Assembly (NCBI GenBank): GCA_003818205.1
Contig: RPRQ01000001.1
Location: 62,001 to 126,000, forward strand
DNA: 64,000 bases
DNA from: Bacteroidales bacterium
GTDB lineage: Bacteria > Bacteroidota > Bacteroidia > Bacteroidales > Tenuifilaceae
Reading direction: 5' to 3'
Shown here: positions 2,136 through 8,178 of the stretch, one piece after another
Numbering within the stretch: position 1 is the first letter of the stretch
How the letters are laid out: each line of letters starts with the position of its first letter
Program-made: the position numbers and the translations under genes
Notes under the pieces: model-generated
The model's database searches: none
The model's input: the letters and a program-made list of their open reading frames with translations, nothing else
Told to the model about the DNA's origin: nothing

Positions 2136-4880
2136 ATGGTTAAAGCATATAAAAAACTCTTGCCCATTCTTTTCCTGAGTATGACGTTACACTCCATTGC
2201 CCAAAAGAGCTACAAACCTGTTATCGATTACTTATATACCTATCAATTTTCATTTCCTGCAAATGGATTATCATCAGTAGTGAAGGATGGGAAATACGGT
2301 TTTATCGACCAAACAGGTAAACCAGTTGTTGATTATAAATATGATCATTCTTATGGTTTTTCAGATAATGGATTAGCCATGGTAACTATGAATGGCAAGT
2401 GGGGGTTGATTAATAGTACAGGATCAGAAGTTCTTGGATGTTACGAATATGGTAGTATGTTTGCTGGTTTTCACAAAGGTCTAGTTCAAGTTACAAAAAA
2501 TTGGAAATATGGTTATATTGACCGAAGTGGAAAACTAATTATTGATTGTCAGTTCGACTATGCATCATCGTTCTCCGACAAAGGTCTAGCGTGTGTCAAG
2601 AAGAATGGCAAGTGGGGCTATATAGATATTACAGGGAAGATGATTATTCCCTACCAATTTGATTATGCTTACGACTTCGAAAACGATTTAGCATTGGTTT
2701 TGAAAAATGATAAGTATGGCTTCATCAACATTATTGGTAAACTAGTAATCGATTGTGTGTACGATGATGCAAAGAATTTTTGGGAGAATGGATTTGCTAA
2801 GGTTAAGAAAGATGGGAAGTTAGGTTGGATAGATAAAAGCGGAAAAATATTCCTTGATGATGTAAAGGATTTTTCTGAGAATGGTCTTGCAGTGGCTCGA
2901 AAGGGAGATAAATGGGGTTTCATTAAAAGGAATGGAAAGACAGCAATTGATTACCAGTTTAATGGTGCGTTTGATTTTTCGCAGAATGGACTTGCTGCAG
3001 TAAAAAAGGGCGAGAAGTGGGGATTTATTAATGAAAAAGGCGATGTTGTGATTGATTATCAATTTAATGGTGTTACAAGTTTCGCTCCAAACGGTATGGC
3101 AGGTGTTAATAAGGATGGTAAAAGAGGATATATTAATCAAACTGGAAAATTTGTAATATCCGATTCTCAGTACGAAACAGTTGCGATGTTCTCGCTTAGC
3201 AATTGGGCATTTGTAAAAAAGAATGGGAAATGGACCTATATCGACCAAACTGGCAAGGAGATAACAGGTTACATGTTTGATGAAGTTATTAGATCTTACC
3301 CCAATGAGTTTTCCAAAATAAAGAAGGATGGGAAATTAGGTTTTATTGACCCAACCGGAAGGATATTAATTAAATGTCAGTTCGATGATGTGCGCAGCTT
3401 CATCAATGGATTGTGCGCAGTTCAGAAGGGAGGGAAATGGGGTTATATTGATGAGCAAGGTAATTTGGTTGTCAATTATCAGTTCGAAGATGCGGGGATT
3501 AAGTCAAATAATGGGTTGATATGTGTGAAAAAGAATGGAAAGTGGGGGTGTGTAAAACAGGTTAAACCAATGGATGATATTGCCAACTATGTTAAAACGG
3601 AGATAGGTAAATGGCAACAGAAAGGTAAGTATGAAACATCCGATGCATATACAGCAAGGGTTACAGAAGAAAACTCTAGAAAGAAAGTTGAGGAATTAAT
3701 GTATCTGGCAACGCAAAATATTGCACCAAACTATTGCGATTGGAAATCAATAATAAATGAGTACGATCCCGATAACCAAACATTTAAAGTAGATATTGGG
3801 GGTTTGTCATCAATCTACGTAAAAGTACCAGTAACAGAAGCTGAAGCTTTTGATACATCAGCAAACAAGCTGCAATTCTCCAATATTCAATACGCGCTTG
3901 ATTCGGAGGGGAATGTTTTCCTGCAAAAGGCAACTATTAATAACCCAGCTAATGAAAAGTCCTATGTCTATTCATCAACCGATAACGCTACATTTGCCTA
4001 CACACAGCTCAATATCAACCTCGATCCTTTAAAGTTAAACGTACAAACTGCTTCAAATACCCAATCGGTTAACACCGAAACTAAAACCATTACAGTGGGT
4101 CAGTCGGATGTTGATGTGAATATACCTACAAACCCACAAACCAACGACAAGACGTTTGTAGTAATCATTGCCAATGAGAACTACCAAAAGGAGGTCAAAG
4201 TAAAATTTGCTTCGAATGATGGCAAGGTTTTTAAGCAATACTGCGAGAAAACGCTTGGAATTCCATCTCAAAATATACATTTAGCCGTTGACGCTACCTT
4301 CGGCAATATGAAATCGGAAATAAAATGGATAGCTGATGTTATAGCAGCCTATAATGGTCATGCGAAAGTAATCTTTTTTTATGCCGGACATGGTATGCCC
4401 AATGAAACAGATAAATCTTCATACTTACTGCCTGTAGATGGATTTTCATCAGACTTTGAGACTGCCATCAAGCTGAACGATTTGTATAGCCGTTTAACAG
4501 CAAATCCCGTTCAGGAAGTTACTTTCATAATGGATGCTTGCTTTAGCGGTAGTGCGCGCGATAATGGGATGCTTGCTGAGGCGAGGGGCGTAAAGATTAA
4601 ACCTAGAACTGAGGTGTTGAATGGCAATAGTATTGTTTTTAGTGCTGCAACAGGCGATGAGACAGCTTATCCTTACACAGCAAAGCAGCATGGTTTGTTT
4701 ACCTATTTTCTTCTAAAGAAACTACAAGAAACTAAGGGGGATGTTACTTACAAGGATTTATTCGATTATATCAAAACAAATGTTGGACAACAATCTGTTG
4801 TTGTGAATCAAAAATCGCAAACGCCACAATTACAGACAAGTAAAAACTTGCAAGAGTGGGAGACGATGAAGTTGAAGTAA
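2136..4880 (+). CDS. Secreted WG-repeat protein with C-terminal caspase (C14) domain
   Basis: A 914-residue protein that begins with a signal peptide (cleavage near SIAQ, residue 22). Thirteen WG repeats of the form KxGxIDxTGK...YxFD fill about residues 25-480 and probably form a solenoid or propeller-like binding region. A linker of about 200 residues follows. Residues about 680-905 form a caspase-like domain: catalytic His752 in FYAGHG and Cys802 in MDACFSG, with the usual fold order (VVIIANENY near the start). This looks like an active bacterial metacaspase-type protease, exported to the periplasm or surface; the substrate is unknown. It stands alone between a MITE and a convergent terminator-like hairpin. 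WG repeats often serve for protein binding, so they may choose the target. Confidence 0.9.
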   Translation: MVKAYKKLLPILFLSMTLHSIAQKSYKPVIDYLYTYQFSFPANGLSSVVKDGKYGFIDQTGKPVVDYKYDHSYGFSDNGLAMVTMNGKWGLINSTGSEVLGCYEYGSMFAGFHKGLVQVTKNWKYGYIDRSGKLIIDCQFDYASSFSDKGLACVKKNGKWGYIDITGKMIIPYQFDYAYDFENDLALVLKNDKYGFINIIGKLVIDCVYDDAKNFWENGFAKVKKDGKLGWIDKSGKIFLDDVKDFSENGLAVARKGDKWGFIKRNGKTAIDYQFNGAFDFSQNGLAAVKKGEKWGFINEKGDVVIDYQFNGVTSFAPNGMAGVNKDGKRGYINQTGKFVISDSQYETVAMFSLSNWAFVKKNGKWTYIDQTGKEITGYMFDEVIRSYPNEFSKIKKDGKLGFIDPTGRILIKCQFDDVRSFINGLCAVQKGGKWGYIDEQGNLVVNYQFEDAGIKSNNGLICVKKNGKWGCVKQVKPMDDIANYVKTEIGKWQQKGKYETSDAYTARVTEENSRKKVEELMYLATQNIAPNYCDWKSIINEYDPDNQTFKVDIGGLSSIYVKVPVTEAEAFDTSANKLQFSNIQYALDSEGNVFLQKATINNPANEKSYVYSSTDNATFAYTQLNINLDPLKLNVQTASNTQSVNTETKTITVGQSDVDVNIPTNPQTNDKTFVVIIANENYQKEVKVKFASNDGKVFKQYCEKTLGIPSQNIHLAVDATFGNMKSEIKWIADVIAAYNGHAKVIFFYAGHGMPNETDKSSYLLPVDGFSSDFETAIKLNDLYSRLTANPVQEVTFIMDACFSGSARDNGMLAEARGVKIKPRTEVLNGNSIVFSAATGDETAYPYTAKQHGLFTYFLLKKLQETKGDVTYKDLFDYIKTNVGQQSVVVNQKSQTPQLQTSKNLQEWETMKLK

Positions 4881-4962: not shown

Positions 4963-5238
4963 TTAATGGTTAAGCAAATCAGGATTTCTGAATGAAATTA
5001 TACTGTTAATCATCTCAATGGAGGCCTTCGCTTCGCAATGATTGGGGTCGATATCAACGGTTTTATGAAAATCGTTCAGGGCTGCAATCATATCTCCCTT
5101 CATTCGGTGCACCTTCCCTCTATGAAACCATGCGTTAGCATTCAATTTATCTTCATTTATCGCTTGGGCTAGGAAACGCTCTGCTTTGTCGATATTCCCC
5201 TCGGAGAGGTGTTGAATTCCATATTCAAGGTTGTTCAT
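4963..5238 (-). CDS. Small TPR-repeat protein
   Basis: A 91-residue protein when started at the ATG at 5238 (MNNLEYGIQHL). A GTG start at 5262 would add eight residues and is less likely. Two TPR-like helix pairs are visible (GIQHLSEGNIDKAERFLAQA and AWFHRGKVHRMKGDMIAAL), followed by a short helix. TPRs mediate protein contacts; no enzymatic motif is present and there is no signal peptide. It lies 30 bp downstream of nadD on the same strand and is probably co-transcribed with it. The partner is unknown. Confidence 0.7.
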   Translation of the reverse strand: MNNLEYGIQHLSEGNIDKAERFLAQAINEDKLNANAWFHRGKVHRMKGDMIAALNDFHKTVDIDPNHCEAKASIEMINSIISFRNPDLLNH

Positions 5239-5268
5239 TCGATGTGGTTTTGAAAATAACACGCAAGG

Positions 5269-5853
5269 TTAAGGCTTTGTTCGATACAATCCTAAATCGT
5301 TGATGTATTCCAAAATGTATTCGGGCAAATAGCACTGCACATTTTCGCCATCCATAATTAATTGCCTTATTTGGGTTGACGAATAATTTACAAGTGGTGC
5401 ATTGATAATTTTTATCGGGTACTTCTTTGTTAGCTCATCCGTATTACTACCTTCACGTGGATATATAAGGATTTTATTGTTATAAAGAAGATCATCATAG
5501 TCTTTCCACTTGGTGATGGAATCCATCGAGTCGGAGCCAAGGATAATATAAAAGGTTCTATTCGGATATTTTATTTTCAACTCTTTTATGGTATCGACTG
5601 TGTATGATGGCCGTGGCATGCTCATTTCAATATCGCAAACCATCATCCTGTTTTCATTGAAAGGGATAGCCCTTTTCACCATCTCTAAGCGATGGTGATC
5701 GGGCGCAAGCGAATCTTTATCCTTTAATGGGTTTTGAGGGCTTACAACAAACCAAATTTCGTCAACTTCAGTAAAATCGACGATATAGTTGGCGATAGCG
5801 AGATGCCCCTTATGGAATGGGTTGAATGAGCCGAAGTATAAGCCTGTTCTCAT
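5269..5853 (-). CDS. nadD: Nicotinate-nucleotide adenylyltransferase
   Basis: This 194-residue enzyme adenylates nicotinate mononucleotide to deamido-NAD in NAD biosynthesis in the cytoplasm. The nucleotidyltransferase motif GSFNPFHKGHLAIA (residues 8-21, with the HxGH-type signature) and the C-terminal SSTQIR motif are both intact. Length is normal for the family. The ATG is at 5853. Upstream lie REP repeats and the RAYT gene, then yicC. In many Bacteroidota yicC, gmk and nadD are adjacent; here gmk is absent between them. Confidence 0.95.
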   Translation of the reverse strand: MRTGLYFGSFNPFHKGHLAIANYIVDFTEVDEIWFVVSPQNPLKDKDSLAPDHHRLEMVKRAIPFNENRMMVCDIEMSMPRPSYTVDTIKELKIKYPNRTFYIILGSDSMDSITKWKDYDDLLYNNKILIYPREGSNTDELTKKYPIKIINAPLVNYSSTQIRQLIMDGENVQCYLPEYILEYINDLGLYRTKP

Positions 5854-5909
5854 TATTTTATTTTGTACATTTGATCTAAGCCTTGAATTACAATAGTTAA
5901 AATTCTGTC

Positions 5910-6487
5910 ATCCCTTCGGGATTCTAGCTGTTAAGTTGTTTATTTGTTATAATCGTATCACCCCTTCGGGGTTTCTATTTGTCAGATAGTTCGCTAATTT
6001 ATAATTATTTCATCCCTTCGGGATTTTTTTTTGTTAGATTGGTTGCTAAAGATTAATCATATCATTCCTTCGAGATTCTAGCTGTTAAGTTGTTTATTTG
6101 TTATAATCGTATCACCCCTTCGGGGTTTCTATTTGTCAGATAGTTCGCTAAGTAATAATCATATCATTCTTTCGGGATTCTAGCTGTTAAGTTGTTTATT
6201 TGTTATAATCATATCACCCCTTCGGGGTTTCTATTTGTCAGATAGTTCGCTAAGTTATAATTATTTCATCCCTTCGGGATTTTTTTTTGTTGTTAGATTG
6301 GTTGCTAAAGATTAATCATGTCATCTTCCAGCTGTTAAGTTGTTTATTTGTTACAATCATACCACCCCTTCGGGGTTCTACCTATGTGTTCTTTCGTTAA
6401 CAAGCAATAAATAACCCGATTAAAAGCCCGAAGGGCTGATATAATTGTAGTGTTTTACAAACCATTATCATTTAACCCCGAAGGGGT
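5910..6487. repeat. REP hairpin array 1 (downstream side of RAYT)
   Basis: About eleven short hairpins are spaced roughly 50 bp apart. Two unit types alternate: ATCCCTTCGGGAT, followed by a spacer with TAGCTGTTAAGTTG, and ACCCCTTCGGGGT, followed by a spacer with TTTGTCAGATAGTTCGCT. Clear stems are at 5910, 5960, 6012, 6114, 6216, 6268 and 6364. Decayed ones are at 6064 and 6166. Inverted-orientation stems are at 6425 and 6475, the last inside the RAYT coding region. The stems have the TTCG tetraloop typical of REP elements. This is probably DNA mobilised by the adjacent transposase. Confidence 0.9.
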
Positions 6488-6955
6488 GATATTATCTTCA
6501 TCCCAATCAAATAGATATTTTTCATCATATTCAATTTCAAATTGCTTCAAGAATTCTATATATTCTTCCTTGAAGGTTCTCTTGCGATGATGTTCTTCTT
6601 GTTTTAAAATGTATTGGTAAACATTTTCAATCTGGGATTGTGAATATGAGAATGAACCAAAACCTTCTTGCCATGAGAACTTTCCCCTAACAAATTTTTG
6701 GCTGTTGATAAAATTGCTAGAGTTATTTTTTAAGTCTCTTACTAAATCTGATAGAGCCATAGAAGGTTTTAAGCCAATGAACAAATGAACATGATTAGAA
6801 ACCCCATTAACGATTATCGATTTTTGATTCTTACCCTTTATAATGCCTGCCATGTACTTAAAAACTTCTTCTCTCCAAGGTTTTTGTAAAATATTTTGTC
6901 TGCCATTTACCGCAAACACTACTTGGATATAGATTTGAGAATATGTTCCAGCCAT
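6455..6955 (-). CDS. REP-associated tyrosine transposase (RAYT, Y1/IS200-like family)
   Basis: A 166-residue HUH-type single-strand nuclease. The metal-binding His-x-His motif is HVHLF (His55, His57), and the catalytic tyrosine lies in IENVYQYILKQEEHH (Tyr115 most likely, Tyr113 nearby). Family members cut and join REP hairpins on single-stranded DNA. It lies between two arrays of CCCTTCGGG hairpins, which are probably its substrates. Its last residues (ITPSGL, then NDNGL and stop) are encoded by a REP unit at 6475-6487, so the native C-terminus has probably been replaced by a repeat. The ATG at 6955 gives a family-typical N-terminus. Confidence 0.9.
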   Translation of the reverse strand: MAGTYSQIYIQVVFAVNGRQNILQKPWREEVFKYMAGIIKGKNQKSIIVNGVSNHVHLFIGLKPSMALSDLVRDLKNNSSNFINSQKFVRGKFSWQEGFGSFSYSQSQIENVYQYILKQEEHHRKRTFKEEYIEFLKQFEIEYDEKYLFDWDEDNITPSGLNDNGL

Positions 6956-7008
6956 ATTTTTAGAGGTATAGTTTTACCCGCAATTTATCATTTTCTAGAA
7001 AATATGTC

Positions 7009-7227
7009 ACCCCTTCGGGGTTTCTATTTGTTTGATAATTCACTAAGTTATAATCATATCACCCCTTCGGGGTTTCTATTTGTCAGATAGTTCGCTAAGT
7101 TATAATCATATCATCCCTTCGGGATTCTAGCTGTTAAGTTGTTTATTTGTTATAATCGTATCACCCCTTCGGGGTTTCAATTTGTCAGGTAGTTCGCTAA
7201 GGTATAATTATTTCATCCCTTCGGGAT
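7009..7227. repeat. REP hairpin array 2 (upstream side of RAYT)
   Basis: Five hairpins start at 7009, 7061, 7113, 7163 and 7215, with the same two unit types and spacers as array 1. The order is C-type, C-type, T-type, C-type, T-type. The array fills the gap between the RAYT start and the yicC stop. A degenerate GC-rich piece (GCCTGCCTGTC, about 7264) follows. No gene or clear promoter is visible in 6956-7299. Confidence 0.9.
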
Positions 7228-7299
7228 TCTAGCTGTAAAGTTGTTTATTTGTTGTTCGTTGATGCCTGCCTGTCTTGTTCGTAAACTGAAAGGGGATGT

Positions 7300-8178
7300 T
7301 TAAAGAATATTCAGCGATTGTTCCTTAATCTTCTCCAGCTCATCCTTCATGAGTACAACAAACTTTTGCATCTCGGCCTGGCTTGCCTTCGAGCCCAGGG
7401 TATTGATCTCACGACCCATTTCTTGAAGGATGAATCCGAGCTTACGTCCAACAGGATGAACCTCATTTACTGTATTAATAAAATATTCGCAATGGTTACG
7501 AAGTCGAACTTTCTCCTCGGTAACATCCATCTTTTCTAGATAGTATATAATCTCCTGCTCAAACCTATCGTTATCAACCTTTACATCTTTTCCAAGTTTT
7601 TTAAGGCCTTCTTGCAGTTTGACTTTAACCGTCTCCAAGCGTTGCTTTTCAAAAGGTTCAATTTTAACGAGTAGCTCCTCAATTAATAGAACACGTTCAG
7701 TAATATCTTTCTCAAGGGCTTTGCCCTCTTGCTCCCTGAAAAGAATCATTTTATCGATTGCAGCGTTGATGCATTCAAAAACCGCTTTCCATTCATCATC
7801 GGTTACCTCAACCTTCTCAATTTTCAGAACATCGGGTAAACGTAGTATCGTTTGAAATACTGGTTCGTTGGATAATGAGATATTACAATCTTCAGAGATT
7901 GCCTCAATTTGTTGATAGTACGATTTGAATATGCCTGCGTTGATGGGTGCGGCAACGTTCTCCTGCTTATCATCGTAGCTTATGTAAAAATCAATCTTTC
8001 CACGAATTAGCTTTGATGAGAGTAGGTTTCGTATGTCATACTCCCTATCGCGATAAATCATAGGGGTTTTAACGTTTAAATCGAGCTGCTTACTGTTCAG
8101 CGATTTTACCTCAACGGTAATACATTTACCGTTGAACTGAATTTCGGCTTTCCCAAAACCGGTCATTGATATTAGCAT
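7300..8178 (-). CDS. yicC: YicC/YloC family endoribonuclease
   Basis: A 292-residue protein with the family hallmarks: N-terminal MLISMTGFGKAE, the SLNSKQLDLN segment, and the C-terminal DUF1732 region with FILQEMGREINTLGSKA. Family members are cytoplasmic endoribonucleases with a role in RNA turnover. Length is normal and the ATG at 8178 matches the conserved start. A TAAATTTG box lies 20 bp upstream on the minus strand. In related genomes gmk and nadD follow directly; here the REP/RAYT block intervenes. Confidence 0.93.
   Translation of the reverse strand: MLISMTGFGKAEIQFNGKCITVEVKSLNSKQLDLNVKTPMIYRDREYDIRNLLSSKLIRGKIDFYISYDDKQENVAAPINAGIFKSYYQQIEAISEDCNISLSNEPVFQTILRLPDVLKIEKVEVTDDEWKAVFECINAAIDKMILFREQEGKALEKDITERVLLIEELLVKIEPFEKQRLETVKVKLQEGLKKLGKDVKVDNDRFEQEIIYYLEKMDVTEEKVRLRNHCEYFINTVNEVHPVGRKLGFILQEMGREINTLGSKASQAEMQKFVVLMKDELEKIKEQSLNIL

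Follow-up and report, generated by a model that had tools for sequence, protein, structure and literature searches.

A subclass 1.2 Y1 transposase gene within a ladder of conserved hairpin units: a candidate REPtron-like system

Insertion sequences of the IS200/IS605 group carry one subterminal hairpin per end, with LE and RE on the same strand. For class-2 proteins (RAYT/TnpA_REP), the passages cited here describe the REPtron logic, including a case with a 5-bp REP and local pile-up of repeats (Nunvar 2010, PMC2817692; Corneloup 2021, PMC8266576). TnpA_Y1 subclass 1.2, as defined in the cited parts of the survey by Quentin 2018 (PMC6006769), is recognised by the motifs Y---Q--HH and WQ, with the HUH consensus tabulated as DH[IV]H; its members are ~150 aa long with a conserved C-terminal tail, occur in low copy number, stand near the IS200 transposases and come mostly from Bacteroidetes and Cyanobacteria. 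The same parts of the survey give "no" under REP in the table for this subclass and describe its genes as generally without IS200-type terminal structures. The automatic REP search reported there required, besides GTAG/GTGG, that 7-20 nt of basal stem be paired, so that 5-bp units without a GTAG/GTGG head, such as those described below, would escape it. CGTC-tagged REPs, as presented in the cited parts of Di Nocera 2013 (PMC3733652), have an unpaired CGTC head (TGTC in many), A-T first pairs, stems of 8-9 bp and loops of 4-5 nt, with Bacteroidetes among their hosts, and CGTC repeats were not found to flank any transposase gene. RayT genes of Chryseobacterium are named in the part of PMC11194056 consulted, which does not mention repeats. 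A literature search of titles and abstracts and of open-licence PMC found no report of hairpin repeats for the subclass 1.2 group; in the literature consulted here, in which the survey gives "no" REP, a REPtron-like system is not described for these proteins.

The window, by which we mean the whole stretch of 64,000 nucleotides analysed, contains a Y1 transposase gene (Table 1) whose product also matches the NCBIfam IS200 model (59.8 bits) and carries the motifs NHVH, WQ and YILKQEEHH. The initial annotation called this protein a RAYT, a label that fits in spirit but not in wording: the Y motif ending in NP of class-2 RAYTs is absent, with Q--HH in its place, and among the 426 hairpins aligned from this and related loci (see below) GTAG or GTGG stands within 2 nt of the hairpin in 1 case on one strand and in 0 on the other. 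By motif, the window protein is a member of TnpA_Y1 subclass 1.2 and not a classical class-2 RAYT, and Y---Q--HH, WQ, low copy number, a host among the Bacteroidetes and proximity to IS200 are all features that it shares with this subclass. The genome contains 7 matches to the transposase, the other six being 33-59% identical to the window protein, in keeping with the low copy number and divergent copies of subclass 1.2. The HUH motif NHVH, rather than the consensus DH[IV]H, is shared by the window protein and 10 of 81 sequences; invariant in 50 aligned sequences are H55, H57, W95, Q96, Y115, Q119, H122 and H123. A search of PDB sequences with the protein gave no match. In its AlphaFold model (pLDDT 83.7), the nearest solved folds are the TnpA proteins of ISDra2, IS200 and IS608 (Z ~15 over 104-109 residues, rmsd 2.0-2.8), and TnpA_REP 4er8 is less near (Z 10.2, rmsd 3.5).

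Around this gene, at 5910-7227, lie 14 perfect hairpins (stem 5 bp, TTC/GAA loop 3 nt), and three further units are decayed (6064 and 6166) or truncated (~6320), in good agreement with the "about sixteen" hairpins that had been noted on both sides of a Y1 transposase. A scan for perfect stems of at least 4 bp, with at least 3 G-C pairs and a TTC/GAA loop, returned 15 hairpins in the whole 64-kb window, 14 of them in this interval, against a random expectation of 0.38 on average and 2 at most (50 order-1 Markov sequences as long as the window). With a positional unit model, 15 places in the window scored at least 20, all within 5895-7229, and five shuffles gave 0. The stems are of the types ATCCC-TTC-GGGAT and ACCCC-TTC-GGGGT, plus one AGCCC. 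The initial description of two alternating types holds in that ATCCC and ACCCC alternate along much of the array, but the orientation of both is identical. That the two types serve as left and right ends, as in BIMEs, was rejected for the window on account of this single orientation; inverted pairing is found between units across the gene. The step from unit to unit is 50-52 nt, and a few ~20-nt spacers recur as well, so that identity reaches 98% between 52-nt stretches and is 88% and 72% for 247-nt blocks. All upstream and most downstream units share one orientation; inversion is confined to the pair at 6425 and 6475, on the 3' edge of the gene. In what follows, > denotes a unit read hairpin-then-box that points along the gene, and < the reverse. 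Two matches to Rfam in 5200-7800 (E = 0.31 and 0.35) stayed below the gathering score, which no family reached. Predicted folding of the unit (DNA parameters) gave -4.0 and -3.7 for the two strands; both fold about equally well, and either may be the active one.

Table 1. Transposase gene and hairpin units in the window (positions count from its first nucleotide)
Feature	Coordinates	Strand	Remarks
Outermost upstream unit	7200..7229	-	hairpin 7215-7227, ATCCC type, directed at gene
Upstream unit	7148..7177	-	hairpin 7163-7175, ACCCC type
Upstream unit	7098..7127	-	hairpin 7113-7125, ATCCC type
Upstream unit, second from gene	7046..7075	-	hairpin 7061-7073, ACCCC type
Gene-proximal upstream unit	6994..7023	-	hairpin 7009-7021; box partly decayed; directed into gene
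Gene for a 166-aa Y1 (HUH) transposase with a single catalytic Tyr	6455..6955	-	PF01797, 82.5 bits
Inverted unit within gene 3' end	6473..6502	+	hairpin 6475-6487; encodes NITPSG near C-terminus; directed into gene
Second inverted unit	6423..6452	+	hairpin 6425-6437, AGCCC type; directed into gene
Downstream unit	6349..6378	-	hairpin 6364-6376
Truncated downstream unit	6311..6348	-	box and spacer retained, hairpin gone
Downstream unit	6253..6282	-	hairpin 6268-6280
Downstream unit	6201..6230	-	hairpin 6216-6228
Downstream unit, stem decayed	6151..6180	-	stem 6166-6178; positional model score 20.3
Downstream unit	6099..6128	-	hairpin 6114-6126
Downstream unit, stem decayed	6049..6078	-	stem 6064-6076; repeat family D3, 81%; without scored positional-model match
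Downstream unit	5997..6026	-	hairpin 6012-6024
Downstream unit	5945..5974	-	hairpin 5960-5972
Outermost downstream unit	5895..5924	-	hairpin 5910-5922

Among relatives we identified 244 places with the pattern, of which 223 encode a relative, and retained the best 80 of the 223, all from named genomes; judged by title, Bacteroidota make up most of these, Chloroflexi, Ignavibacteria and others a few. Hairpins within 1 kb of the gene were present at 77 of these 80 named homologues (best 80 of 223), and no unit was found within this distance at L099 (at a contig edge), L110 and L129. Counting stems of at least 5 bp with 4/5 inner pairs G-C and a loop of 3-4, the 80 loci contain 293 hairpins in 106,505 bp within 700 bp of the gene and 57 in 325,040 bp more than 1.5 kb away, a density beside the gene about 16 times that farther away. 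The 80 loci and the window together (81 loci) have 513 hairpins within 1 kb, of which the 426 with the seven common stems were retained and 87 dropped. EM alignment of the 426 revealed that a 12-nt box is conserved beside the hairpin, always on one side, the typical unit being A-ACCCC-GAA-GGGGT-GACATGATTATA, where the first stem position is A or G and the second C, T or G. GNA loops occur in 304 of the 426; when the opposite strand is read, 303/426 have T[GTA]TC immediately 5' of the hairpin, and TGTC stands 5' of 109/426 across the 81 loci. So as to avoid the circularity of hairpin-based selection, we also searched with the box alone, ignoring the hairpin, and obtained 241 boxes near the gene (1.59 per kb) and 24 far from it (0.073 per kb). 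All five stem pairs form at 183 of the 241 near boxes and at 0 of the 24 far boxes, and the fourth stem pair at near boxes is C-G in 115, T-A in 68 and G-C in 21. In a separate set of 29 loci found in relatives by the protein alone, 27 of them with a recognisable gene, there were 80 hairpins in 29,976 bp near vs. 5 in 26,290 bp far; at least two hairpins were present at 17 of the 27 loci, one at 3 and none at 7.

We compared the occurrence of unit and gene across genomes with a unit model (R1) built from 61 sequences, 16 of 77 loci having been excluded because they were near duplicates or belonged to other stem classes, and a protein profile (A2) built from 50. Both were applied to one set of 149 genomes from the class, the window genome among them. 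The R1 unit was present in 19 of the 26 genomes with a protein match at E ≤ 1 × 10−70, in 9 of the 62 with a weaker match and in 2 of the 61 without a match at E ≤ 1 × 10−20. The difference between genomes with close homologues and those without a match is highly significant (Fisher p = 1.6 × 10−11, for a cut of 1 × 10−70 chosen after the lists had been inspected and with some R1 training loci possibly among the searched genomes), as is that between any match (28/88) and none (p = 7 × 10−6). Repeats equally common without the gene would have told against the initial annotation; they are far from equally common there, and its assignment of the repeats to the transposase gains from these counts as well as from the units beside 77 of the 80 homologues. 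The R1 unit is absent from 7 of the 26 genomes with close homologues, in which other stems may serve. One of the two R1-positive genomes without a gene (G104) retains a gene fragment of 52 residues; in another genome, G016, from an earlier set of 60 relatives, we counted 45 units and no protein match, and the 7 of its 11 unit-bearing contigs that were compared contain no gene remnant. Units can thus outlive the gene or occur without it. The units of G016 (L169-L179) form clusters, several of them as alternating inverted pairs.

The arrangement of units around the gene is regular. Over the 81 loci, the unit nearest on the 5' side is directed into the gene in 55 of 65 cases and its 3' counterpart in 49 of 57, and where units lie on both sides, both are directed inward in 34 of 44 (>>gene<<). 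The inward 5' hairpin ends 8-16 nt ahead of the start codon in 21/55, and the inward 3' hairpin starts 4-10 nt past the stop codon in 21/49. Adjacent units have the same orientation in 230 cases vs. opposite orientations in 74, with a median step of 51 nt between same-orientation neighbours, and the number of units per locus reaches 19. A minimal form, with two inward units per side and no others within 1 kb, occurs at five loci (L070/L072/L078 and L075/L081). At one locus (L204 486-627, G065:C46), units follow each other every 28 nt without a spacer, as opposed to the usual 50-nt ladder.

Stems differ between lineages and between paralogues. When the stem class (A- vs. G-start) was placed on the protein tree for the 78 labelled loci, two changes were required, whereas 200 shuffles of the stem labels required at least 8 (mean 11.4). 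Within the window genome, the paralogue at C37 is accompanied by ACGCC stems, that at C109 by GCAGC/GCCGC and that at C56 by the longer GACCTC, with boxes that appear similar by eye; paralogues at C76 and C119 have GCCCT-type stems, where a similar box is not apparent by eye. No repeated flanking hairpin was found at the C30 paralogue (L009 1414-1857, Y---Q--HH), which belongs to a different lineage. As judged from these comparisons, stem type tracks the protein tree, and paralogues in one genome bear different stems.

In the window genome the free units are largely confined to the locus. Exact copies of the two cores number 9 and 5, of which 8/9 and 5/5 are at the window locus, and the 34 unit-model matches comprise 14 at the locus, 1 on C47 and 19 in a MITE-like family. 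The initial annotation had read the array as recent or continuing REP amplification; amplification across the genome was rejected here, as the exact cores are local and most other matches lie inside a MITE. The C47 match belongs to a solo array (L006 1457-1586) of three units ~50 nt apart, one strong and two weak, without a transposase gene. The 19 matches of the family, which is ~330 bp long, are spread over 17 contigs (L151-L167) and consist of inward-facing units inside the element, which terminates in inverted repeats (GGGTCTGCTGATTAAG) where it is better preserved; the family looks like a DDE-type MITE that bears units, not like single REP jumps.

Other genomes hold dispersed units. In 12 isolate genomes selected as gene-bearing, unit matches were found in all, from 3 to 72 per genome. 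Nine unit regions of Flavobacterium sp. ZT3R18 were compared, one of which (L201) duplicates the array of the gene locus and was set aside; of the other 8, L198, L202 and L208 are clear gene-less >>..<< quartets, L197 and L207 are quartets with one decayed member, L199 and L200 have a single unit per side, and L203 has two outward units. In Ancylomarina, two gene copies that are 96% identical lie on one contig, each adjoined by a gene-less derivative that keeps both gene edges. In one relative (L212), two gene copies stand 2.2 kb apart (264-722 and 2924-3382), each with its own flanking units. A Dyadobacter genome contains long tandem >< ladders. Long ladders of tandem >< modules were seen in G071, with periods of ~373, 218 and 210 nt (L196, L194 and L195). 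Alternating unit orientation occurs in G016 and G071, whereas in the window the stem types alternate within one orientation.

The gene neighbourhood is common to related species. We estimated dN/dS for 13 pairs, one of which (L111/L114) consists of two copies within one genome, and obtained 0.03-0.20 in 12 of them, dS being saturated in the 13th. Because dN/dS is low and synteny is common to species, the gene looks as if it were kept by selection rather than being an active IS. Variation of the array, which the initial annotation had proposed to look for between strains, was compared here between species, and it was borne out in part: array size differs in the syntenic trio L061/L062/L063 (9, 4 and 9 units), but the arrays are unchanged between the syntenic loci of L070/L072/L078 and of L075/L081. 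In the window, the array lies between what we take to be a nadD-like gene on the left (5269..5853, minus strand) and a presumably yicC-like gene on the right (7300..8178, minus strand). In all four sister-genus genomes compared, a gene that we take to be gmk (guanylate kinase) sits between these two. Neither a protein search nor PF00625 found gmk in the window genome (assembly 98.98% complete; as a control, PF00625 recovered gmk from 10 of the 14 known genomes searched), nor was a gmk remnant found in the window, where the gap spans 5854-7299. A true loss or replacement of this normally essential gene is possible, though no more likely than an assembly that collapsed the similar ladders surrounding gmk. 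Also in the window, at 2136-4880, is a 914-aa protein that by eye has WG-type-like repeats followed by a caspase-like peptidase domain.

We consider it likely that the locus is a REPtron-like system, in which a subclass 1.2 Y1 HUH protein is flanked by copies of its own putative recognition unit. The unit, its spacing and inward orientation, the stem pairing, the lineage specificity, the link to the gene and the gene-less copies are all documented at the level of sequence. By analogy with known HUH proteins, the Y1 protein would bind the folded unit in single-stranded DNA, and its tyrosine would nick near the folded unit with part of the box as a guide, so that T[GTA]TC may hold the role of the GTAG guide in RAYT repeats. 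If the protein now and then copies or joins units, local ladders such as that of the window would result, as would the dispersed gene-less quartets of some genomes. The window ladder itself probably last grew by local tandem duplication, because 52-nt stretches of unit plus spacer recur at up to 98% identity, and slippage alone can also yield ladders. Mobilisation in trans is not visible in the window genome, since its free units are almost wholly local.

Other explanations have to be weighed against a REPtron-like system. That the >>gene<< block is an ordinary mobile IS of the IS200 group, with the units as its ends, the quartets as MITEs and the ladders as repeated adjacent insertions, would suit the gene pair of Ancylomarina with its derivatives, the paired genes of L212 and the minimal >>gene<< forms within 1 kb at L070/L072/L078 and L075/L081. 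We nevertheless regard it as unlikely, given that the six other matches in the window genome are far from identical and have other stems wherever their hairpins are repeated, that synteny is kept across related species under strong purifying selection, and that the ends formed by the units are inverted, as opposed to the LE and RE of IS200/IS605, which lie on the same strand. Slippage returns in the view that the ladder is passive satellite DNA produced during replication and unconnected with any activity of the protein; the near-identical stretches and blocks within the locus and the tandem >< ladders of Dyadobacter speak for it. It leaves unexplained, however, why box and hairpin are conserved beside one gene family in many genera and why stem class tracks the protein tree, and we find it hardly credible.

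The close approach of many hairpins to the start and stop codons invites a regulatory interpretation of the link to the gene: the units would be RNA elements, whether attenuators, terminators, protectors of 3' ends or, over the start codon of the transposase, an autoregulatory site. Units in both orientations, on both sides of the gene and in numbers of up to 19 per locus argue against this, as do the dispersed quartets that sit apart from the gene and the absence of any Rfam family reaching its gathering score in the interval searched; nor would terminators be expected to have a conserved box and lineage-specific stems. An origin as RNA elements appears quite improbable to us.

If the REPtron-like reading is correct, it bears on the domestication of transposases and on the host roles of RAYT-like proteins: a family nearer to IS200 than the known RAYTs, and surveyed as repeat-free in the parts of the survey cited above, has repeats in nearly all of the close members examined. 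The pairs of paralogue and stem within single genomes would offer a ready-made specificity code that is testable in vitro with short oligonucleotides, and the gene-less quartets a direct means of finding out if these proteins are still active in moving DNA. More tentatively, in a generalisation that may well fail, we suggest that subclass 1.2 proteins could be a widespread class of domesticated single-strand nucleases with a separate stem code for each protein and a shared T[GTA]TC-guide box, which maintain and spread >>..<< quartets and form an evolutionary and mechanistic link between IS200/IS605 and RAYTs, their specificity being rewritten by joint change of stem and protein; in its boldest form, the transposase reportedly missing from TGTC/CGTC REPs would come from these proteins or their kin.

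Compared with IS200/IS605 (IS608, ISDra2), the present system has the nearest solved fold and hairpins at the gene edges, and differs in its several inverted units and in a gene that is syntenic under purifying selection. Several near-identical full copies, typical of IS200/IS605, are not seen here, copies in the own genome being at most 59% identical, with the two 96% copies of Ancylomarina as the exception. The inverted gene-less groups of palindromes between genes in some genomes resemble REPINs and BIMEs, from which the two units per side (>>..<<) and the lack of a free dispersed population in the window genome set the system apart. As far as these features go, the unit is similar to the CGTC-tagged REPs in its head (TGTC), its A-T first pairs and its occurrence in Bacteroidetes, and dissimilar in its stem and loop (5 bp and 3 nt vs. 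the longer ones described in the cited parts of PMC3733652); for CGTC itself, a single strand gives the few cases within 2 nt of the hairpin foot (2 of 426). The entry "no REP" for subclass 1.2 in the cited table of PMC6006769, which is descriptive and not definitional, does not extend to the loci studied here, with their units at 77 of 80. From the RAYT REPtrons, as they appear in the passages cited, the system differs in a protein class with Q, not NP, after the Tyr, in the 12-nt box with T[GTA]TC instead of a GTAG head, and in the regular ~50-nt ladders of one orientation, the double (quartet) ends and the mostly Bacteroidota hosts. With the same REPtrons, on the same passages, it shares a Y1 gene flanked by inverted palindromes (34 of 44 two-sided loci), a repeat type of its own for each gene, the joint evolution of protein and repeat, and repeats that are sometimes heaped near the gene; a 5-bp REP has a precedent in the Marinomonas REPtron Mb (PMC2817692, PMC8266576). 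On these features, the present case lacks the NP of the class-2 Y motif and the GTAG head, but works like a REPtron.
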